Source: Streptomyces griseus subsp. griseus (lineage in GTDB: Bacteria > Actinomycetota > Actinomycetes > Streptomycetales > Streptomycetaceae). From it: DNA of 64,000 nt. The notes under the pieces are model-generated. The model saw nothing but the letters and a program-made list of their open reading frames with translations, was not told the DNA's origin and did not search any database. The DNA lies in NCBI RefSeq assembly GCF_003610995.1, contig NZ_CP032543.1, positions 3,410,001 to 3,474,000 of the forward strand. Reading direction: 5' to 3'. Positions 31,597-50,827 of the stretch are shown in pieces (positions within the stretch are counted from its first letter, which is position 1; each line of letters begins with the position of its first letter). Position numbers and translations under genes: made by a program.

Positions 31597-31670
31597 CGGG
31601 GTGTAGCGCAGCTTGGCAGCGCGCTTCGTTCGGGACGAAGAGGTCGTGGGTTCAAATCCCGCCACCCCGA
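31597..31670 (+). tRNA. tRNA-Pro (anticodon CGG)
   Basis: The 74-nt sequence folds as a full cloverleaf. Acceptor arms CGGGGTG (31597-31603) and CACCCCG (31663-31669) pair, the discriminator base is A31670, and CCA is not encoded. The anticodon stem CTTCG/CGAAG encloses the loop TTCGGGA, giving anticodon CGG for CCG codons. The T-arm has GGTTCAAATCC. The 3' 42 nt are part of the integration repeat, so the element kept the gene intact. Confidence 0.95.
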
Positions 31671-31695
31671 CAGCTAAGCACCAGGTCAGAGGGCC
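31629..31695 (+). repeat. attL: 67-bp direct repeat of the element
   Basis: These 67 bp recur exactly at 44870-44936. The first 42 bp are the 3' part of tRNA-Pro (anticodon loop to discriminator) and the last 25 bp run into the left arm of a terminator hairpin. Bases just outside differ on each side (G31628 versus C44869; C31696 versus G44937), which defines the limits. Confidence 0.93.
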
Positions 31696-31721
31696 CTTAC
31701 CGAATCGGTAAGGGCCCTCTG
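31687..31721 (+). terminator. tRNA-Pro terminator supplied by the element
   Basis: A perfect 16-bp stem (31687-31702 with 31706-31721) with a 3-nt loop stands just past the tRNA. Its left arm starts inside the att repeat; the rest is element DNA. The reverse orientation can also end int transcription. Confidence 0.85.
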
Positions 31722-31765: not shown

Positions 31766-32935
31766 CTACGGCTTCCGTGGGTCCGCGCCGAAGATGCCGT
31801 CCATGACGACGGCGCCCGTCTGGATCACCGGCCTGATCTGCTTCCGGTAGACCTCCTCGGTCACGGCCGTCCCCGAGTGACCGACGAGCCGGGAGATCTC
31901 CTCCAGGGGGACGCCACGGTCGGAGAGCAGTGACACGAAGCTGTGCCGGAGTTCCCGAGGCGTCCACTCGGCCGCGTCGACCCCGTCGACGTCCTTGAGC
32001 GCTTGGCGGAAGGCGCGGCGGACGTTGGCGGCGTCGAGCGGCTTGCCGACGGCCGAGGAGAAAACGAGCCCGTGTTCCTCCCAGTCGTTGCCGGCGGCGA
32101 GCCGGTCCCAGCCCTGATCCTCGTACTGCCGCCAGAGCGCATCGATACAGCGTGACGGCAGGGCGAGCGTGCGCCGGGACTTGCGGGTCTTGGTGTCGCC
32201 ACTCCGCCGGACCGACCGCCACACAGCAATGTGCGGAGGCTGCGGCGGGACCAGGTCGGGCCGTCCCTTGAGGAAGACGTGGTCCCAGGTGAGGGCCCGC
32301 AGTTCCTCGGTGCGAGCGCCGGTCAGGAGGGCGACGACAATGTAGGCGTACATCGAGGTTCCCTCAGCTCCTTGGAGAACGGCCTCCGCCTGGGCGAAGG
32401 TGAGGGCTTTCGAGGGGCGCCCGGACTGCCCCTGAGGCACCGAGCACAGTTCCACGACGTTGCGCTTGACCTTGTCCCGGGCCATAGCTCGCTTGACCGC
32501 CCGGTTCAGGCAGGAGTGAAGGCCCTGGAGAGTTCGGGTGCTGAGCGTCCTGGACTTCTTGGCCAGCCAGCGGTCAACGTCCTCCGCGCTGAGGTCGCGG
32601 AGCTTGCGGGCGCCGAGCGACGGAATTACGTGCTTCTCGCTGAGGAGCGTGGTCGTCGCGACGGTGCTCGGGTCAAGGCCGGCCAGACCGTAGGTTAGCC
32701 AGTCCGTGACAGCGTCCTTCACGGTGTAGTTGGTCGGCGCGATGGCCAGACCGTCTTCGTGGTCGCGCAGCACCTCCTTGAGCTTGTTCTTCGCCTCCGT
32801 CTTGGTCCTGCCACTCCCCCGCTTCACGATCCGCTTGCCGCTCGGGTCGAAGCCGAGGTTCGCCGTGGCGATCCACCGTTGCCGCTTCTCGTCCCAGTGG
32901 AGGCCGCCGTCACCGCGGCTGCGTCGCTTGGTCAC
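31766..32935 (-). CDS. int: Tyrosine-type site-specific integrase
   Basis: A 389-residue recombinase for integration into and excision from tRNA-Pro. The N-terminal arm-binding domain (RGDGGLHWDEKRQRWIA) is followed by a SAM-like core-binding domain (about 70-160) and the catalytic domain: R208 in TGARTEELRAL, R330, H353 in LVGHSG and nucleophile Y363 in EEVYRKQ. The first His of the HxxR box is Arg here (PRELRHS), a substitution I recall in pSAM2-family integrases. The start overlaps the xis stop. Confidence 0.93.
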   Translation of the reverse strand: MTKRRSRGDGGLHWDEKRQRWIATANLGFDPSGKRIVKRGSGRTKTEAKNKLKEVLRDHEDGLAIAPTNYTVKDAVTDWLTYGLAGLDPSTVATTTLLSEKHVIPSLGARKLRDLSAEDVDRWLAKKSRTLSTRTLQGLHSCLNRAVKRAMARDKVKRNVVELCSVPQGQSGRPSKALTFAQAEAVLQGAEGTSMYAYIVVALLTGARTEELRALTWDHVFLKGRPDLVPPQPPHIAVWRSVRRSGDTKTRKSRRTLALPSRCIDALWRQYEDQGWDRLAAGNDWEEHGLVFSSAVGKPLDAANVRRAFRQALKDVDGVDAAEWTPRELRHSFVSLLSDRGVPLEEISRLVGHSGTAVTEEVYRKQIRPVIQTGAVVMDGIFGADPRKP

Positions 32936-33153
32936 TGCTCAGCCCCAGCTTCCCGCTCCAGGAGCGCAACGTAATCAGTGATGGCGGAAGCTGGAACGAG
33001 TCGGGTCCGCCCTTCCTTGACGGTCCGGAGACGACCAGCACGGATCAAGTCGTAGACGACGCTTCGGCTCAGCCCCAACACCCTCACAGCATCGGGAACG
33101 CGGTACAGAGCCGGAGGGATCGCCGGTCCCCCAGTGTCGAGTGCGGTCACCAT
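32932..33153 (-). CDS. xis: Excisionase / MerR-like helix-turn-helix protein
   Basis: A 73-residue protein with the HTH_17 excisionase pattern: YRVPDAVRVLGLSRSVVYDLIRAGRLRTVKEGRTRLVPASAI. It should bend att DNA and direct excision with Int. It overlaps rep by 7 bp at its start and int by 4 bp at its end, so rep-xis-int are one coupled operon, as in pSAM2. Confidence 0.9.
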   Translation of the reverse strand: MVTALDTGGPAIPPALYRVPDAVRVLGLSRSVVYDLIRAGRLRTVKEGRTRLVPASAITDYVALLEREAGAEQ

Positions 33154-34547
33154 TCCTCCTCAGCGCTCAGCAGTTCGGCGCGGTGTTCGCGGGCGGTTGC
33201 GCGGTTGTGTTGGATGTCGCGGTGGATGTTGACGGCGAGCCAGGATTCGCCGGGGGTGTGGCCGTTTCCGGCGTAGGCCCAGTGGGCGAGCGTGAGCGTG
33301 GTGGCTTCGGGGTGGTCGTCGGGGTCGGGGAGGCCGAGGGCGGCGCGTTGTTCGGCGGCGCGGTAGTCGGCGCGGACCTGTCGGAGGGCGCCGAGGGTGG
33401 TGGAGTAGGCCCGGGACTTGGTGGAGAAGTGGCCGCGGAAGCCGAGCATGTGGGCCCAGTCGCGGAGCTTGCGTTCCGGGTAGGCCTGGTGCAGGTCCAG
33501 GCAGGCTTCGATTAGCCGCCGTGGGTGCTCGGGGACGTCGAGGAGGACGAGGGCTTCCTTGTTGCCGACGCGGTGGTCGACGGTGCCGGTGGTCTCGGCG
33601 GCTTTGGTGGCGTATTTGGCGACGTAGGAGGCGACGGCTCGTTCGGTGAGGTCTTCGCCGTTACCGAACGCGCCGATGGGCTGCACGTCGAGCTGCGTGC
33701 CCCACCGCAGCGTCCACCCCTGCGTGATCCCGGCTTCCGGAACGGCCGGCACAACCACTTCGACCCGGGCGGCGGCGGCGCGGATCGCGTCGTCCAGCAG
33801 GTCGAGGGTGGCCCAGGCCGGGGGCGGGGTGTCCGGGCCGTCGGGTCCGTCGAAGCGGATGACCGCGTGGAAGTGAACGGCCCCGCGCTTCTGGTACTCG
33901 GCGACCTTGCCGAAGGAGACCTTGGACTGTTCGCGGGCGGCTTTCTGGGTGAGTCCGGCGCGGCGGGCGATTTCGCGGCGGAGGTAGATCGTGAAGTAGC
34001 GCCAGAGGTCGGAGGCGTGGTTGTTCCACAGCACCGCCCCCGCGTAGTCGTAGGTGTCCGGGTCGAGCGGCGTGCCCAGCTCCGGGGCGTCCTCGGTGTG
34101 CCGGGTACCGCAGCGGCAGGGGCGGTTGCCGGGCCGGTTGTGGACCGGGCCGAACGAGGGGGCCGTCAGGGTGGCGAAGACCCGGGGGTGGTCCCGGATC
34201 GTGGTGGGGGTGCCTTTGTCGGGGTCGCCGGTGAGTCCGGCGCGGATGAGGTGGTAGGTGTCGCCTGCGTAGGTCCAGGCGCAGGCGGGGCAGCGGGAGG
34301 CGCGGCGGTTGCCGCAGGCGATCCGTAACCGGCCGCCGGGCTCGGTGTCTGTCGAGTAGTGGTGCAGCAGGGTGCCGGTGGCCCTGTCGATGGTTTTGGT
34401 TGCGCCGGTGAGGTGGATGGGCTGGGAGCAGCCGCCGGTGCGGCGGAGTTGTTCGGTGAGGCGGTCGAAGCCGGGTGACCCGGCTACCCGGAGCAGATCG
34501 CTCAGGGTGGCCGGGTCCAGGCCCGCCGCGGTGGCGGTGTCGGTCAC
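33147..34547 (-). CDS. pSAM2-type rolling-circle replication initiator (RepSA-like)
   Basis: A 466-residue HUH endonuclease-type Rep. A Cys cluster (C78, C86, C89 in GNRRASRCPAC) probably binds zinc. The HUH motif is VHFHAV (H225, H227), and the catalytic tyrosine motif is SYVAKYATK (Y308 or Y312). It nicks the double-strand origin so that the element replicates when excised. GTG 34547 overlaps the previous stop (GTGA); the longer frame to 34589 would run into the upstream gene. Confidence 0.88.
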   Translation of the reverse strand: MTDTATAAGLDPATLSDLLRVAGSPGFDRLTEQLRRTGGCSQPIHLTGATKTIDRATGTLLHHYSTDTEPGGRLRIACGNRRASRCPACAWTYAGDTYHLIRAGLTGDPDKGTPTTIRDHPRVFATLTAPSFGPVHNRPGNRPCRCGTRHTEDAPELGTPLDPDTYDYAGAVLWNNHASDLWRYFTIYLRREIARRAGLTQKAAREQSKVSFGKVAEYQKRGAVHFHAVIRFDGPDGPDTPPPAWATLDLLDDAIRAAAARVEVVVPAVPEAGITQGWTLRWGTQLDVQPIGAFGNGEDLTERAVASYVAKYATKAAETTGTVDHRVGNKEALVLLDVPEHPRRLIEACLDLHQAYPERKLRDWAHMLGFRGHFSTKSRAYSTTLGALRQVRADYRAAEQRAALGLPDPDDHPEATTLTLAHWAYAGNGHTPGESWLAVNIHRDIQHNRATAREHRAELLSAEEEW

Positions 34548-35371
34548 GTGAAGCACCGCCCGGAGTCGCACAGGCCGGTCTCGTCCCACTCGTCGAAGGG
34601 GAGGGTGTCCCAGCCGTCGGGGATGGCTTGGTCGAGGGGTTTGCCGTACCGGGTGAGGTAGACCGGGTCTTTGCCGAGCATGGTGCGTCGTTCGTTGAGG
34701 AGCGTTTCGAGCTGGCAGGACTTGGCGAACAGGTCGGGCGTGGTGCGGCGCATTTCGCGCCAGGCTTCCGGGCGGCGGAACGGGCAGAAGTAGCAGGCCG
34801 ACTTGGGTGGTACGGGGAGCCCGGCAGCGTGGATGATGCGGTGGCAGTCGGTCCGGCGCAGGCCGAGGTCCAGGAGCGGGTAGGTCATCTGCTCGTAGGG
34901 CTCGCTGCGGCGGGTATTGGCGCGCTGGATCTCATCCACGCTGATGCCGACGCCGACAAGGGCCGGGTTGCTGGCGCTGGCGCCGAGCTGCTTGAGACGC
35001 TTGCCGACGACTTTGATTTTGAAGTCGCCGGTGCAGCTGCGCCTGCCGGGTGCGCCGTTGGCCATGCGGACGGGGATGCCGATGGAACGGGAGCCTTCGC
35101 GGGTCAGACGGCCGTAGAGGGTTTCGGTGCTGCCGTTACGGCGGGTGCGGTGGAGCTCCTCGATCGTGATCCCGTGAGCGGCGGCGAAGGGGGCCGCGTG
35201 CTGGCGGAAGTAGGTGATCGTTGCGGGGTCTTCGGAGTCCTCTCCGACGTTGGCGAAGAGGAATCGGTCGAAGTCGATGCGGCCTTGTGTGGCGAGGACG
35301 AGGCAGGCAACGGACTGGACGCCTCCGCCGAAGGAGAACACGCGCAGGGTGTCAGGTGTCGTGGTCATCAC
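34544..35371 (-). CDS. PP-loop ATP pyrophosphatase, PAPS-reductase-like
   Basis: A 275-residue protein of the adenine nucleotide alpha-hydrolase superfamily. The PP-loop is S13-FGGGVQS-20, and the Cys positions C113 (RRSCTGDFK) and C193-x2-C196 (CYFCPF) could bind an iron-sulfur cluster or zinc. PAPS reductases and DndC/phage base-modification enzymes share this layout. No other sulfate-assimilation or dnd gene is nearby, so it is unlikely to be housekeeping. It is locked into the element backbone by a GTGA overlap with rep and an ATGA overlap upstream. Substrate unknown; a role in nucleic-acid modification is inference. Confidence 0.8.
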   Translation of the reverse strand: MMTTTPDTLRVFSFGGGVQSVACLVLATQGRIDFDRFLFANVGEDSEDPATITYFRQHAAPFAAAHGITIEELHRTRRNGSTETLYGRLTREGSRSIGIPVRMANGAPGRRSCTGDFKIKVVGKRLKQLGASASNPALVGVGISVDEIQRANTRRSEPYEQMTYPLLDLGLRRTDCHRIIHAAGLPVPPKSACYFCPFRRPEAWREMRRTTPDLFAKSCQLETLLNERRTMLGKDPVYLTRYGKPLDQAIPDGWDTLPFDEWDETGLCDSGRCFT

Positions 35372-36406: not shown

Positions 36407-37078
36407 TTATGCGAGTTGGGCGGTGATGGCATCGGCGAGGTGTGCGGGTACGCCGAGGCGGGCGCGCAGGGTGGCCGCGTCGATCCGGGCACCGGTCGCC
36501 GCCTGGTGGGAGTCGGAGAGCTTCTGGGCGTGGTCGAGCAGAGCCGGAGGAACCGTCACCGCCGGAGCCGGGGGTGGAGCGGGCTCGCCGGATGAAGCCG
36601 CAGGGAGTTCCGGGGCCGGTTCGGGAGCCCGTTCCACCGTCACGTCCGCGGCCGGTTCAGGCGCAGGAGCAACCGGCGGTGCGGGCACCGGAACGGGCTC
36701 GGGGTCAACCTCGGGCGCGGCGGTGGGGGCGTGGACGAGGAGGGTGCCGCCGAGGAAGGCGAGGGCGGGCCATCCGGCGACGAGGATGCGGAGCCAGGCC
36801 GGAACGTCGTTGAGGTTGAGGAGTCCGGCGGTGGCGACGTTCGCGCCGAGCGAGGCGGCGAGGGCGATGATGAACCAGGCCCAGGCGGCGCGGTTGTCGG
36901 CGGTGGTGCGCATGCGACGCCAGGCCGCGACCAGGAGCAGATCGACGCTGATCGGGTAGGCCCAGGCTTTCCAGCCGTCCTGCCCGGCCGCTTCGGCCAG
37001 GTCATGCAGGTGCGCGAAGGACAGAGCACCAGCGATCACGGCCTGGACGAGCACGGCGTCAATGCGGATGCGGGACAC
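36407..37078 (-). CDS. DUF2637 membrane protein (SpdB-like)
   Basis: A 223-residue protein with four hydrophobic segments in the first 115 residues (VQAVIAGALSFAHLHDLA, ISVDLLLVAAW, AWFIIALAASLGANVA, LRILVAGWPALAFLG). These define DUF2637. A long Pro/Ala/Glu-rich linker (about 120-175) leads to a small helical C-terminus. In pSAM2-type elements these are SpdB proteins for intramycelial spread. AAAGGAGG lies just before the ATG. Confidence 0.85.
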   Translation of the reverse strand: MSRIRIDAVLVQAVIAGALSFAHLHDLAEAAGQDGWKAWAYPISVDLLLVAAWRRMRTTADNRAAWAWFIIALAASLGANVATAGLLNLNDVPAWLRILVAGWPALAFLGGTLLVHAPTAAPEVDPEPVPVPAPPVAPAPEPAADVTVERAPEPAPELPAASSGEPAPPPAPAVTVPPALLDHAQKLSDSHQAATGARIDAATLRARLGVPAHLADAITAQLA

Positions 37079-37435: not shown

Positions 37436-38785
37436 TTAGCTGGTTGCCGGGCGGGGCTTGAGGAGCGGCGAGCCCGGGGCCGGGGCGGTAGAAACGGCCG
37501 GCCGGAACGGTGCCAGAGCGGCAAGGTGCGGGGTGAGGTGCGCGTACTCGTGGCAGATGGCCACGGCTTGGGCGGGGGTCATGGCGGGCGTGCGGATGCG
37601 GGACCAGCCGCCGGAGGAGTCACCGGCCACCGCGACACCGGGACGATCCGGCGGGATGGTGGTCGCGGCGAAGACCGCTTCCGGGGCGATGTCCCCGAGA
37701 GCCATCTCGGCGGTCTGCTTGTCGTTAACCCGGTGCACCACACGCCCGGTGAGCTGAGCCCGCAGAGCAGTGGCGCCCTTGCCGAGGTCGGAGCCGAAAC
37801 GCTGCCCACAGACCTCCAGGAAGATCCCGACCGCGCGGGCCATCTGCGCGAGCCGGATCATCCGCATCACCATCCGGTCCCGCCGCTCCTCGTCCTTCTT
37901 CACGGCCACGAGGAAGAGTTCCGCGACCTCGTCCACCAGGACGACCAACGGCACCGGCCGCACCTTCGCAGGCAGACCCCACAGGTCCGAGACACCATGA
38001 GAGCTGAGGAGGTCAAAGCGCTCCTCCATCTCACCCACGAGGGCTTCCAGCAGCCCGTCAGCCTCGTCCGGGGTGATCGCCAGAGCGGAGAGGCGGGGCG
38101 CGTAGCCGCGCTGTTCCACACCCCGTTTGCAGTCGATCCCGACCAGACCGACCGGAAGCTTGGCCAGGCCGGAGATCAGGTTGCGCTGATACATCGACTT
38201 GCCCGACTGGTTCGCACCGACCGTCAGGGCGTGCGGGACCTTCTGATAGTCCCGGACGAACGCCGAACCGTCCTCCCTCAGCGCCACCGGCACGACCAGC
38301 GGACCAGCGGTGACATTGCGCGGGAGGCGGCGGGGCATCTTCACGCGGCGCAGGACGTCGTAGCCGGTCATCCGCAGTTCCACGAACCCCGGCTTCACCT
38401 CCACCACGTGGACCGAGTGGACGCCCCAGGCGTGGCGAAGCCGTTCGGAAGCGGCGGACACGCCGGCAGGCTCCAGACCGGCGGGAAGGCGAAGCGTCGC
38501 CCGCATGCCCGTGGTGGAGTAGCGGACCCGGCGGACCTGCGGGGGAACGGGCTGGACTTCCTGGCGGGCCACGTTGCGGACCATGAACGCCCTCAGGCGA
38601 GACGGCTGGACCGTCAGCCCGCACACATCCATCGTCGCCCGATACGTCACCGAGAACCGGACCCGGGCGACCGGGGCACCCACCAGCGACCAGAACACCC
38701 GCGGAGACCGGGCCTTCGCGTAACCGAGGCCACCGGCGGCCGATAAGGCCCCCGCCACCTCGATCACCGTGGACAGGTCCGACAT
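37436..38785 (-). CDS. FtsK/SpoIIIE-type DNA translocase (TraSA-like)
   Basis: A 449-residue conjugative translocase. Walker A is GANQSGKS (K196), Walker B is VVLVDEVAEL (D285, E286), and the arginine-rich segment RMIRLAQMARAVGIF follows as in TraB/TraSA. Streptomyces TraB pumps double-stranded DNA between hyphae without relaxase-style nicking. An N-terminal hydrophobic segment is short, so membrane attachment may need partners. The gene is spaced 2 bp from the upstream regulatory protein gene. Confidence 0.9.
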   Translation of the reverse strand: MSDLSTVIEVAGALSAAGGLGYAKARSPRVFWSLVGAPVARVRFSVTYRATMDVCGLTVQPSRLRAFMVRNVARQEVQPVPPQVRRVRYSTTGMRATLRLPAGLEPAGVSAASERLRHAWGVHSVHVVEVKPGFVELRMTGYDVLRRVKMPRRLPRNVTAGPLVVPVALREDGSAFVRDYQKVPHALTVGANQSGKSMYQRNLISGLAKLPVGLVGIDCKRGVEQRGYAPRLSALAITPDEADGLLEALVGEMEERFDLLSSHGVSDLWGLPAKVRPVPLVVLVDEVAELFLVAVKKDEERRDRMVMRMIRLAQMARAVGIFLEVCGQRFGSDLGKGATALRAQLTGRVVHRVNDKQTAEMALGDIAPEAVFAATTIPPDRPGVAVAGDSSGGWSRIRTPAMTPAQAVAICHEYAHLTPHLAALAPFRPAVSTAPAPGSPLLKPRPATS

Positions 38786-39257: not shown

Positions 39258-40124
39258 ATGACCTTCGTTCCCGATCCCCTCGACCCAGACGATGACCGGC
39301 CGCCCTACGAGCAGGTTGCGAGCAGCCTCGGAGCAGCAGTCCGGACGAGGAAGATCGCACCAGGGGAGAAGTTGCCGTCGCAGAAGGAGCTGACGGAGCA
39401 CTACGGCTTCGCGCGCGCGACCATTCAACGCGCACTGCGGGACCTCGAAGACGAAAGGCTAGTGGTCTCCCGCAAGGGAAGCGGAGTCTTCGTCCGCAGC
39501 CGGACAGAACGGCCGGCGGGGCTACGCCCTTACGTAGAGCAGGCCTTTGCCTCCGCGGACGTCACCATCGACTTCGCCGGGTTCTCCAGCGAAACCCTGC
39601 ACGGAGCACTGCAAGAGCCGTTGGACAAAATCCGGATCGGCAGGCTGACACCGGCAAGCATCACGGTCCGCATACTCGTTCCGGACATGGCTATCCCCCA
39701 GGCAGCTCCAGTCCGCCGTGAGGACTGCGGAGATGATGAACGGCTCCGGTCCCGCATGCACGACATCATGGTCGGGTACGCCCGCAGCATCCGTGACTCA
39801 ATGGCGGAGTTGAGTCACCTGGGCTTGGTCCCCGAGACGAGCGTTGACGTGCGAGTCCACAGTGGTACGCAGTTCTTCAAGCTGTACGTGATCAATGGAG
39901 CAGACGCCTTCTTCGGCTACTACCCGATCAAGCCCAACAAGGTTGTGGCGCAGGGCGATCCCATCGAAATCTGGGACCTGGTTGGGAAGGACACCGTCCT
40001 CTTCCACCACTCCGTCAACGACAGCGAGTCGTCTAGCGGCACGCAGCAGGTCCAGCAGGCTGGAATGTGGTTCGACAGCGTGTGGAACAGCATCGCGAGG
40101 GGATTCAACCTTGATGGACACTGA
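39258..40124 (+). CDS. GntR family repressor (KorSA-like)
   Basis: A 288-residue regulator. The winged helix spans about residues 15-80: PPYEQVASSLGAAVRTRKIA, LPSQKELTEHYGFARATIQ and a wing with SRKGSGVFV. The C-terminal domain is longer than in pSAM2 KorSA and ends WFDSVWNSIARGF. It is expected to hold replication and transfer genes silent until induction. Its end overlaps the HAD gene start by 11 bp. Confidence 0.83.
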   Translation: MTFVPDPLDPDDDRPPYEQVASSLGAAVRTRKIAPGEKLPSQKELTEHYGFARATIQRALRDLEDERLVVSRKGSGVFVRSRTERPAGLRPYVEQAFASADVTIDFAGFSSETLHGALQEPLDKIRIGRLTPASITVRILVPDMAIPQAAPVRREDCGDDERLRSRMHDIMVGYARSIRDSMAELSHLGLVPETSVDVRVHSGTQFFKLYVINGADAFFGYYPIKPNKVVAQGDPIEIWDLVGKDTVLFHHSVNDSESSSGTQQVQQAGMWFDSVWNSIARGFNLDGH

Positions 40125-42145: not shown

Positions 42146-42745
42146 TTAAGGCATTGCCGGACCGGTTGTCAGGGGCTCGTGGTGATGCCAGATGAGGTAT
42201 CGGTCTTCTCGGCGCAGCTCGGCGGCGCCCCACTCCATTCTCATCACGCCGGCGTTCATGGAGCAGGCGTAGGCGACGAGGACCAGGCCGACTTCCGGAG
42301 GGAGCTGACCGAGGTCCCGGTGGGCTTCGGGTTCTTCGAGTTCCTCAAGCCCGAGGTCCAGCTCTCCCTGCATAGGTTCCGGCCCGTGGCGTCGAATGAG
42401 GTCAGCACGTAGGCCCGTGGCTCGTCGGAGTCTCGCCGCGGTGACAGGTACGTCCGTCTTGGCGTAGCGGATCGGGTAGATCACGTGGTCCGCGACGATC
42501 ATGACGGTTCGGGCCTGGAGGCGGACCGCGGTCGCGCCGGGGAGATGTTCGAGGCCGGCGGCGAGCTCCTCGTACTGCACGGCGTGGAGACCGTGTCCGT
42601 ACGCCTCCAACGTTTGGGTGTGCACACCTTGGTGACCGTTCCGAGCCCGTTCGTGGGCCCGCGTCAGGCACGCCGGTATGGCGTCAGCCAGCACCCCCGC
42701 CACCTCGCCGAATGTCTCCTTGGCCCACGGAGTCACCACGTTCAT
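42146..42745 (-). CDS. Unknown cargo protein
   Basis: A 199-residue soluble protein (MNVVTPWAKETFGEVAGVL...). It shows ACLTRAHERARNGHQG, YPIRYAKTDVPVTAARLRRA and LIWHHHEPL but no motif I can assign. It is divergent from the SRA-like nuclease gene with about 230 bp between, so it may be its regulator or partner. A purine-rich GGGGGAAGGGCGG precedes its start. A terminator follows its stop. Confidence 0.65.
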   Translation of the reverse strand: MNVVTPWAKETFGEVAGVLADAIPACLTRAHERARNGHQGVHTQTLEAYGHGLHAVQYEELAAGLEHLPGATAVRLQARTVMIVADHVIYPIRYAKTDVPVTAARLRRATGLRADLIRRHGPEPMQGELDLGLEELEEPEAHRDLGQLPPEVGLVLVAYACSMNAGVMRMEWGAAELRREDRYLIWHHHEPLTTGPAMP

Positions 42746-42927: not shown

Positions 42928-42977
42928 TCTTACGATCGCATCTCGCTCGGAGGTGCGGCAGCTCTCGAAGGAGGCCC

Positions 42978-43919
42978 ATGAGCGAGACGGCATCGGACAC
43001 CGTGGAGTGGCAGCTCAAGCCCGGCGATCAGATCGAACGCAAGGCGCTGCACAGCAAGTTCGGGGGGCGGACGCAGGGAGGCATTGGGCCGTCGGCCAAG
43101 ACGCCCAACGTCTTCGTCTTCACGGACCCCGTCGCCGGCGAGAAGCACGGCTACTACGACGACTGGATGCCGGACGGCCGCTTCCACTACAGCGGAGAAG
43201 GCCAGTACGGCGACCAGCGGATGATCTCCGGCAACGCCAGCATCCTGAACCACCAGGCCGAAGGACGTGCGCTCCGCGTCTTCCAGGGCGCCCGCGGAAC
43301 GGTCACCTACCGCGGCGAGTTCACCGTCGACCAGGAGAACCCGTGGTACTCCGCGGATGCTCCCGAGACCAACGACGGCCCTCTCCGTAAGGTCATCGTC
43401 TTCCGGCTCAACCCGGTAGACACCGCACCCCAGGAGCCCGCCACCAAGCTCGGCCGGCTGCTCGTCTCGCACCCTAACCAGGTGGACGATCTCCCCTTGG
43501 AGAGGAACGAGAGCGAGACCACGTTCGTCAACCCGAACCAGGAGCCCTACGAGGCCGACCGCAAGGAAGCCCGCCTGGTCAAGGCGTTCGCCGACTACCT
43601 GACCAGCAACGGCCACCAGTCCGGCCGGCAGCGCATCCTGCCCCCCGGTGAAAGCCGTCCCCTCTTCACCGACCTCCACGCCAAGGGACTCGGACTCCTG
43701 ATCGAGGCCAAGGGCAGCGTCACCCGCGAGAACGTCCGCATGGCCATCGGACAGCTCGCGGACTACAGCAGGTTCGTCGACCACACCATCCGCGCCGTCC
43801 TGCTCCCCTCCGAACCGCGGGAAGACCTCCTGGCCCTGGCCAAGACGCAGGGCTGCGCCGTCATCTGGCCTGAGGGCAAGGGTTTCACCAGCACCAACCC
43901 CAAGGCCCTTCCACAGTAG
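42978..43919 (+). CDS. SRA-like domain/PD-(D/E)XK nuclease, probable modification-dependent restriction enzyme
   Basis: A 313-residue protein with two domains. Residues 10-145 resemble SRA/YDG base-reading domains: HSKFGGRTQGGI (24-36), HGYYDDW, YSGEGQYGDQ (71-80) and GRALRVFQG (96-104), followed by KVIVFRL. Residues 190-300 fit a PD-(D/E)XK nuclease: E192, D232, the E243-A-K245 pair and GQLADY (Q259). Such fusions are expected to cut DNA carrying modified bases (type IV restriction). GAAGGAGG lies six bases before ATG 42978. The domain calls are from motif reading, not a profile search. Confidence 0.72.
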   Translation: MSETASDTVEWQLKPGDQIERKALHSKFGGRTQGGIGPSAKTPNVFVFTDPVAGEKHGYYDDWMPDGRFHYSGEGQYGDQRMISGNASILNHQAEGRALRVFQGARGTVTYRGEFTVDQENPWYSADAPETNDGPLRKVIVFRLNPVDTAPQEPATKLGRLLVSHPNQVDDLPLERNESETTFVNPNQEPYEADRKEARLVKAFADYLTSNGHQSGRQRILPPGESRPLFTDLHAKGLGLLIEAKGSVTRENVRMAIGQLADYSRFVDHTIRAVLLPSEPREDLLALAKTQGCAVIWPEGKGFTSTNPKALPQ

Positions 43920-44105: not shown

Positions 44106-44720
44106 TTGAGCGATCGCGTCGTCGTCTTCTACGACTACCAAAACACCTACATGCAAGCCCGACGGCTCTACCACGAGCACTGGGAGGGGTGGAACAAGGG
44201 ACAGTTCGACCCTGTTGCTCTCGCCCAGCACCTGGCCGCAGACAGCCCTTATGATCGCCACCTGCATCAGGTACGCATCTATCGTGGCCAGCCTGACGCA
44301 AGCAGACAGCCCGGCTCCTACGGGGCCTCGCGGCGGCAGCACGCCCAGTGGGAGCGCAACCCACTCGTCAAACTCGTCACTCGCCCTTTGCGCTACCCGT
44401 CCGCATGGCCTCAGGAACGAGCCCAGGAAAAGGGCATAGATGTCCAGCTGAGCATGGACTTTGCCGTCATGGCCACCCGGGGCGAATTTGACGTCGGGAT
44501 CTTGGTGTCGGCCGACACCGATCTCAAGCCTGCGCTTGAGTATGTGGCCGAGCTCACGGCCTCCCGCGGTAGGCCACGAGCCGAGGTCGCAGCATGGTCA
44601 GTCGACGGCCAGCACTGCCGACGCCTCGCCATCAGGGGCAGAAACCTCTACTGCCACTGGGTGGGAGAGGACACCTACAAAACGGTTCGTGACGACACGG
44701 ACTACACCACTAGTGGCTAA
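44106..44720 (+). CDS. NYN-domain (PIN-like) nuclease
   Basis: A 204-residue protein. The NYN/PIN acidic residues are in place: D10 (VVVFYDYQNTY), D112 (KGIDVQLSMD, with D118), and D137 and D139 (LVSADTDLKPAL). NYN proteins are metal-dependent ribonucleases, often acting on RNA in defence, toxin or processing roles. The start is TTG 44106 behind GGGGGGACC. It is the last gene before attR and follows the SRA-like nuclease; whether they act together is unknown. Confidence 0.78.
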   Translation: MSDRVVVFYDYQNTYMQARRLYHEHWEGWNKGQFDPVALAQHLAADSPYDRHLHQVRIYRGQPDASRQPGSYGASRRQHAQWERNPLVKLVTRPLRYPSAWPQERAQEKGIDVQLSMDFAVMATRGEFDVGILVSADTDLKPALEYVAELTASRGRPRAEVAAWSVDGQHCRRLAIRGRNLYCHWVGEDTYKTVRDDTDYTTSG

Positions 44721-44869: not shown

Positions 44870-44936
44870 TTCGGGACGAAGAGGTCGTGGGTTCAAATCC
44901 CGCCACCCCGACAGCTAAGCACCAGGTCAGAGGGCC
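44870..44936 (+). repeat. attR: 67-bp direct repeat of the element
   Basis: An exact copy of 31629-31695, containing the last 42 nt of tRNA-Pro but not its 5' half, so no second tRNA is encoded. It marks the right end of the element. Confidence 0.93.
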
Positions 44937-44963
44937 GGTACTGATTTCAGTACCGGCCCTCTG
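44928..44963 (+). terminator. Original chromosomal terminator of tRNA-Pro, displaced by the element
   Basis: A near-perfect hairpin (44928-44944 with 44947-44963) shares its outer arms CAGAGGGCC/GGCCCTCTG with the attL hairpin but has different inner arms. By the logic of integration this copy belongs to the chromosome. Confidence 0.8.
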
Positions 44964-49668: not shown

Positions 49669-50742
49669 GTGTATCGGTTCCTGCTGACCCCGCGATGGTG
49701 GGGGATCAACCTCTTCGTCGTGCTGGCCATCCCGTTCTGCGTGTTCATGGGCACCTGGCAGCTCGGCCGCTTCGAGGACCGTGTGCAGTCGCACGAGCAG
49801 GCTGCGAAGCAGCCCGATCCGAGCACCCGGGCCGCCGAACCGCTGGACGAGCTGCTGCCCGTCGACAAGGTGACGTCCGGCCGGCCGGCCACGGCGACCG
49901 GGACGTACGCCGATCAGTTCCTGGTTCCGGGCCGTGAACTGGACGACCGCCGAGGCTTCTATGTCCTGAACCTCCTGCGTACGGACAGCGGCAAGGCTCT
50001 GCCGGTGGTACGGGGCTGGCTGCCCGGTTCCGCGAGCGAGGCCCGGGTGCCCGCCGCACCGCAAGGCGAAGTCACCGTGACCGGGGACCTCCAGGCCTCC
50101 GAGAACATCCACAGCGATGGCGTCAACACCCGGGGCGGGCTCCCCGAGGGCCAGCTCGGCATGATCAGCGCCGCGTCCCTGGTGAACCTGGTCGACTATG
50201 ACGTGTACGACGCCTGGGTGACGCTTCCGGAGACGGAGGCGGAGGCGGGCGGTGCGACCGGCCCGGACGACGCGATGAAGCCGGTGCCCGCTGCGGCCCC
50301 GCAGGGCAGCGGACTGGATCTGAAGGCGTTCCAGAACCTGGGGTACACGGGCGAGTGGTTCGTCTTCGCCGGCTTCGTGCTCTTCATGTGGTTCCGGCTG
50401 GTCCGCCGCGAGGCCGAGGCCGTCCGCGATGTCGCCCTCGGGCTGGTCCCGGAGGGCGCGGACGGCGCGGACGGTGGAGATGGCGGGGATGGTGGGGGCC
50501 ATGGCGACGGCGGGGGCCGTGGGAGCGGCGAGGATGCTCCGGAGGCTACCGGCGCTGCCGATGCCGCTGGTGCTTCTGGTACTCCCGATGCCATCGGTGC
50601 TCCTGGTGCCGCTGGTGCCCCCGGTGCCGCTGGTACTCCCGGTGCTCCTAGTGCCGCTGGTGCCCCCGGCGCTCCCGATGCCGCCGGTGCTCCTGGTTCT
50701 TCCAAAGCAGGGGCTTCTTCGTCGGCCGCGCAGGGTTCCTAA
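49669..50742 (+). CDS. SURF1 family cytochrome oxidase assembly protein with collagen-like tail
   Basis: A 357-residue protein. Transmembrane helices near residues 8-28 and 228-248 flank the extracytoplasmic SURF1 domain (GTWQLGRFEDR, RRGFYVLNLL, PVVRGWLP). SURF1 proteins help assemble haem-copper oxidase. The C-terminal 100 residues are GADGGDGG and GAPGAAGAPGAAG repeats, a collagen-like low-complexity tail on the cytoplasmic side. GTG 49669 gives MYRFLLTPRWWG. Confidence 0.88.
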   Translation: MYRFLLTPRWWGINLFVVLAIPFCVFMGTWQLGRFEDRVQSHEQAAKQPDPSTRAAEPLDELLPVDKVTSGRPATATGTYADQFLVPGRELDDRRGFYVLNLLRTDSGKALPVVRGWLPGSASEARVPAAPQGEVTVTGDLQASENIHSDGVNTRGGLPEGQLGMISAASLVNLVDYDVYDAWVTLPETEAEAGGATGPDDAMKPVPAAAPQGSGLDLKAFQNLGYTGEWFVFAGFVLFMWFRLVRREAEAVRDVALGLVPEGADGADGGDGGDGGGHGDGGGRGSGEDAPEATGAADAAGASGTPDAIGAPGAAGAPGAAGTPGAPSAAGAPGAPDAAGAPGSSKAGASSSAAQGS

Positions 50743-50827
50743 GCGGGGCGACCGGCCTCTGGATGTTTCTGGGCGGGACGGTCACTCGCACTGATTCGGG
50801 GCTGTTGCCGTCCCGGGTTCGGCTGAG

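Follow-up and report, generated by a model that had tools for sequence, protein, structure and literature searches.

The open reading frame at positions 42978–43919 (+) encodes one 313-residue protein in which an SRA domain is coupled to a PD-(D/E)XK domain. Very probably, this protein detects methylated cytosines in foreign DNA and cleaves the DNA that bears them. We regard it as likely that the protein, a cargo of an AICE, is a type IV restriction endonuclease that depends on 5mC/5hmC and works on its own. The comparative evidence on the base that is read is good; cutting is what the predicted nuclease domain would be expected to perform. Coordinates refer to the window, the whole stretch of 64,000 nucleotides that was analysed, which corresponds to positions 3410001–3474000 of the host genome (G000, a single contig of 7.24 Mb).

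Domain architecture and predicted active sites

The gene, its domains and the residues considered here are located as follows:

42968–42974 (+): Shine-Dalgarno-like AAGGAGG ahead of the ATG, from the sequence
42978–43919 (+): SRA–PD-(D/E)XK protein, 313 amino acids, stop codon within the coordinates
43005–43427 (+): SRA domain, residues 10–150, from sequence and structure matches
43074–43076 (+): putative thumb residue Gln33 of the SRA domain, assigned by loop and motif
43152–43154 (+): putative pocket residue Tyr59 of the SRA domain, from alignment to SUVH5
43158–43160 (+): putative pocket residue Asp61 of the SRA domain, from alignment to SUVH5
43188–43190 (+): putative pocket residue Tyr71 of the SRA domain, from alignment to SUVH5
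43533–43916 (+): PD-(D/E)XK domain, residues 186–313, from motif, fold and structure matches
43566–43568 (+): Glu197 of the nuclease domain, invariant helix glutamate
43671–43673 (+): Asp232 of the nuclease domain, conserved catalytic residue
43704–43706 (+): Glu243 of the nuclease domain, conserved catalytic residue
43710–43712 (+): Lys245 of the nuclease domain, conserved catalytic residue
43752–43754 (+): Gln259 of the nuclease domain, conserved

The initial annotation had proposed an N-terminal SRA domain and a C-terminal PD-(D/E)XK domain within one protein, and motifs, fold and structure matches bear this out: in the structure comparison of both regions, an SRA/PUA-like fold was matched at the N-terminus and a PD-(D/E)XK core at the C-terminus. 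Pfam searches of the protein returned a sub-threshold SAD_SRA match alone, with no SBD, other PT reader or HNH domain, and PADLOC detects the protein solely via a partial match to another enzyme. Two other identities were ruled out on this basis, namely a sulfur reader, as Pfam shows no SBD match, and an HNH nuclease, as Pfam shows none and the C-terminus is PD-(D/E)XK by motif and fold.

The SRA domain contains a predicted base-flipping pocket of two aromatics and one aspartate together with a thumb glutamine. Residues Y59, D61 and Y71 align with Tyr416, Asp418 and Tyr428 of SUVH5 in a weak match (E 0.054), and the function of the SUVH5 pocket and thumb equivalents is taken from PMC4740795. 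All three pocket residues are kept in 28 of 31 aligned family members and in 26/26 sequences selected for the SRA profile, from which 5 of the 31 rows, including those lacking pocket or motif, were omitted. By sequence, the nearest relative of this domain is the SRA domain of ScoMcrA, whose structure authors judged its 5mC residues not to be conserved (PMC6224610). Based on the pocket residues and the methyltransferase co-occurrence described below, we infer that the base read is most likely 5mC/5hmC.

The nuclease domain has an alpha-beta-beta-beta-alpha-beta core (helix 196–210, strands 216–220, 233–235 and 240–244, helix 250–263, strand 271–275) carrying the D...ExK motif, and it shows structural matches to restriction-enzyme folds; its sequence profile matched no solved chain. 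Among the catalytic residues named earlier, D232, E243-A-K245 and Q259 stand, and E192 gives way to E197 as the invariant helix glutamate. None of the 24 sequences selected for the nuclease profile departs from D, E, K and Q at these positions; the profile omitted 7 of the 31 aligned rows, including those lacking pocket or motif. Such a domain would be expected to cleave DNA.

The initial annotation had also called this form less described. The SRA-then-PD-(D/E)XK layout is already known, because the MspJI family (including MspJI, AspBHI, LpnPI, SgrTI and SgeI) has it in the same order, an N-terminal SRA-like domain followed by a C-terminal PD-(D/E)XK domain, according to PMC3874153. Foldseek ranked the modification-dependent enzyme AspBHI first (E 5.8e-10), with an rmsd of 17.7 across the two domains, and MspJI aligned over 242 residues (rmsd 15.8). 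Further traits of the MspJI family are assembly as a tetramer and cutting on one side of the modified C, at a set distance from it. However, the MspJI (447–450 residues) and AspBHI (387 residues) chains are longer than the 313-residue protein, the motif is ExK here versus the (D/E/Q)XK given for MspJI in PMC3874153, and HMMER searches, whether run with the sequence by itself, with the full profile or with the domain profiles, found no match at E<=10 to MspJI-family PDB chains. The difference lies in the sequence family, with a ScoMcrA-like SRA domain and no detected kinship to MspJI, and the earlier description is thus partly right. A literature search of main texts, few of them from subscription journals, recognised no published description of the SRA–PD-(D/E)XK form of this family.

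Other SRA-containing enzymes differ as well. ScoMcrA of Streptomyces coelicolor (SBD-SRA-HNH; PDB 5ZMM/5ZMN) is 561 residues long and has, unlike the protein described here, an HNH nuclease and an extra SBD (PMC6224610). TagI (SRA-HNH) likewise has an HNH nuclease instead of PD-(D/E)XK, and its pocket Asp58 lies three residues past the first tyrosine, whereas the conserved D61 lies two residues past it. In PvuRts1I and AbaSI the order is reversed, the matching SRA part being in the C-terminal half of the chains.

Mobile element, neighbours and relatives

The nuclease gene belongs to an element of 13.3 kb that is flanked by two direct repeats of 75 nt:

31629–31703 (+): attL-like direct repeat, overlapping the 3' part of tRNA-Pro (31597–31671)
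31766–32935 (−): AICE tyrosine integrase (PF00589)
33147–34589 (−): AICE replication initiator RepSA, pSAM2 type (PF20199)
36407–37078 (−): DUF2637 protein
37436–38785 (−): FtsK/SpoIIIE (TraB-like) transfer protein
39258–40124 (+): GntR-family regulator of the AICE
42146–42745 (−): divergent upstream open reading frame (P0004), without Pfam match
44106–44720 (+): NYN-domain protein (PF01936, E 5.4e-9), between the nuclease gene and attR
44870–44944 (+): attR-like direct repeat, 96% identical to attL

The integrase, RepSA-type initiator and FtsK/SpoIIIE transfer protein, together with the tRNA att sites, identify this element as a pSAM2-type AICE, in agreement with the initial annotation. PADLOC matches the NYN protein in part to HEC-09 (E 6e-7), and no tblastn match to its gene (E<=1e-4) was found in the 26 close loci. 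Outside the AICE, an imperfect 9-nt repeat array (50537–50707) lies within a 121-residue open reading frame (50429–50794).

Searches by tblastn and clustering of open reading frames in the 26 close loci, together with a genus-wide check of P0004, revealed no partner gene that is generally conserved. Besides the window's own copy, P0004 has matches in 3/26 close loci (L002, L003 and L062); in the genus it occurs in 62/295 Streptomyces genomes and, by coordinates, adjoins the nuclease gene only in G000, G111 and G093. Being mostly unlinked to the nuclease, it was rejected as an obligate partner. Clustering over 27 loci (the 26 and the window) recovered mostly AICE backbone genes and regulators, plus some three-locus clusters, one of them a helicase common to L015, L016 and L072. 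In L015 and L072 the nuclease gene is adjoined by a PLD-helicase-DUF3427 protein (PADLOC mREase_IV, E 0), a relative of which stands beside L016 by clustering only; from its architecture we take this protein to be SauUSI-like. The presence of an mREase_IV protein beside the nuclease gene supports the type IV reading. A scan of ten larger neighbour proteins returned one DndB-family protein, the rest having assorted functions. The DndB-family gene of the Acrocarpospora locus L011 (9047–10411 (+); PF14072, E 2.8e-37) lies directly downstream of the nuclease.

The FtsK/SpoIIIE gene of the AICE has matches near the nuclease in 8/26 close loci and none in the other 18, whose flanks of ~8–10 kb end in some cases at contig ends; the nuclease is thus cargo that resides elsewhere too. 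A search of genome contigs gave 18 loci, comprising 16 long matches (60–96% identity) in Streptomyces, Wenjunlia, Acrocarpospora, Planobispora, Sphaerisporangium, Nonomuraea and Streptosporangium, and two matches to the nuclease part only. Some match is present in 72/295 Streptomyces genomes and classified members in 56/295; the other 16 genomes have short or partial matches, such as ScoMcrA-type SRA domains or the nuclease part alone, and are counted among the 239 genomes without a classified copy.

Relatives also occur on 13 viral contigs, and one is gene 63 of Gordonia phage Sidious, in which genes 63–65 (L259, 2992–5391) encode the nuclease relative followed by two PF01555 N6/N4 DNA methyltransferases. 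The eight long matches on plasmids and a phage match are annotated as "hypothetical protein". The relatives on large Streptomyces/Kitasatospora plasmids (L020–L024, L026 and L027) are ~32–36% identical and have neither the ExK motif nor the first pocket tyrosine; in L022 and L023 the gene is immediately followed by a DUF4007 gene, which in L024 and L027 comes only ~4 kb further downstream, and the L022 DUF4007 protein matches PADLOC SspB (E 9.3e-74). A haloarchaeal plasmid protein (L028, 4446–8072 (+)) combines a related SRA segment with an AAA_5 ATPase in an McrB-like layout.

Classified members fall into several groups. Copies with an intact pocket and changed nuclease residues (E-P-T, Q-P-T, E-A-M, S-V-R, A-I-R and others replacing E-x-K) are L057, L058, L078, L085, L090–L095 and L097, found in genomes G008, G123, G206, G048, G254, G010, G266, G188, G121, G158 and G275; G010 and G188 also have an intact copy. 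The nuclease motif is intact and the SRA pocket lost or truncated in L046, L056, L088 and L105 (genomes G264, G083, G149 and G190). L032 was read from L003, the two being one contig.

Association with C5-methyltransferases

Within the set of related genomes that we examined, a cytosine-methylating enzyme is rare where an intact copy is present. The host genome itself has no PF00145 C5-methyltransferase match at E<=0.001; it also has no PF02384 methyltransferase match at this limit. Across the genus, PF00145 matches are present in 238/295 genomes at E<=0.001, weak ones being counted unreviewed, and in 185/295 at E<1e-20, the limit by which we define a strong C5-methyltransferase. With classes and E-value limits chosen after the E-values were known, a strong enzyme is present in 5/39 genomes with pocket and nuclease intact (G012, G030, G064, G111, whose copy is 96% identical, and G263) and in 173/239 without a classified copy (Fisher 5.7e-13, with G206 still counted in an intact-copy group of 40). 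The five genomes named are exceptions that speak against the reading.

In the post hoc regrouping by pocket, genomes in which every copy has an intact pocket and changed nuclease residues have a strong C5-methyltransferase in 0/9 cases, a count that includes G206, moved by hand to this class (39 + 9, not 40 + 8) as its nuclease pattern had matched elsewhere, which was confirmed. Two of the nine have weak PF00145 matches (G158, 5.5e-11; G266, 6.9e-20, just past the limit). A strong enzyme is found in 4/4 genomes with the nuclease motif intact and the pocket lost and in 3/4 with both lost, hence in 7/8 with pocket-lost copies. The four copies with a lost pocket and intact nuclease motif possibly decayed after the host gained 5mC.

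The association also holds, with G206 in its new class, when tested on an rpoB tree. Of 140 genomes chosen, the tree comprised 139 (55 from the family and 84 drawn at random from the other 240; rpoB of G001 is partial). The dependent model was preferred over the independent one for copies with both sites intact (LR 37.2, p 1.6e-7) and for those with an intact pocket (LR 56.6, p 1.5e-11), and 0/4000 simulations were as extreme as observed. For N6-methyltransferases, used as a control, the same tree gave LR 4.9 (p 0.3; simulation p 0.09) and LR 7.4 (p 0.12; simulation p 0.024, borderline), respectively, so that a slight N6 trend is possible, and these enzymes show at most a weak trend. In an earlier grouping of 40 "active" genomes, with G083 and without G206, PF00145 was depleted at each of the limits 1e-3, 1e-20 and 1e-40, and N6 counts were 18/40 versus 137/246 at 1e-40 (p 0.23), the limit adopted because matches near 1e-30 are common, and 33/40 versus 207/246 at 1e-20 (p 0.82). 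RepSA proved uninformative as a control trait because 261/295 genomes have it; of the 34 genomes lacking it, 20 were listed, and 17 of these have a strong C5-methyltransferase (p 0.033), which runs in the opposite direction and to which we attach no weight.

Could the pocket read another mark? We consider it unlikely that the reader senses 5hmC solely in its glucosylated form, N4mC, phosphorothioate or some other hypermodified phage base, the C5-methyltransferase association being indirect. Specificity does differ among SRA domains (PMC7461809), and both the DndB-family gene of L011 and the DUF4007 genes near some plasmid-type relatives, with the SspB match in L022, point in this direction. 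However, the Pfam result gives the protein no SBD or other PT reader, and the association concerns C5- and not clearly N6-methyltransferases and tracks the pocket residues.

The changed-nuclease chromosomal members were an internal "dead nuclease" control, and their depletion (0/9) went against our first expectation. The association alone is accordingly no proof of cleavage, and the step from exclusion to cleavage is weakened. These members may cut by means of different residues, the reader may suffice by itself, or their lineages may be policed by another type IV enzyme. The same count favours a non-cutting reader, in which the SRA domain would bind 5mC and silence or block incoming DNA or recruit a nuclease, with the PD-(D/E)XK domain structural or nicking. 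This seems quite improbable to us, given the invariant D, E, K and Q of the nuclease profile, the retention of D and ExK in 13/13 viral-contig relatives and the failure to find a generally conserved partner gene in the 26 close loci. That the protein is an AICE housekeeping or regulatory factor unrelated to restriction, as the nearby FtsK/SpoIIIE gene in some loci might suggest, is highly improbable in view of the loci without such a gene, the relatives on viral contigs and in a phage, and a fold that is that of restriction enzymes.

Proposed mechanism and implications

The type IV role put forward in the initial annotation is supported as the best reading by the predicted pocket and catalytic residues and the structure matches and, indirectly, by the negative association with C5-methyltransferases. 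In the mechanism that we infer for this endonuclease, which extends to flipping, cleavage, oligomeric state, cut distance and sequence context, the thumb Gln33 would enter the minor groove and flip a 5-methyl- or 5-hydroxymethylcytosine, which Tyr59 and Tyr71 would then hold from either side while Asp61 faces its Watson-Crick edge. The tethered PD-(D/E)XK domain, with Mg2+ held by D232, E243 and K245, would then cut a short distance away, probably as a homodimer or as two bound copies. The outcome would be restriction of phages, plasmids and rival elements bearing 5mC/5hmC, with a penalty for hosts that have a C5-methyltransferase of their own.

If this is true, the protein represents a compact (313-residue) and widespread actinobacterial family of modification-dependent restriction enzymes, present in 56/295 Streptomyces genomes, which could help explain the poor entry of methylated DNA into some Streptomyces. 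One could then test whether 5mC methylation and 5mC restriction exclude each other, and the enzyme would be a candidate reagent for mapping modified cytosines. We offer the tentative and rather doubtful proposal that the family polices Streptomyces cytosine methylation as a mobile agent, in which the pocket and not an intact nuclease decides C5-methyltransferase ownership; pocket-intact members would exclude these enzymes even with changed PD-(D/E)XK residues, whereas pocket-lost members would not. Should this be so, the classical catalytic residues would be dispensable for the action of some members on 5mC DNA, and AICE-borne copies would help to set the epigenetic marks that a genus can use.
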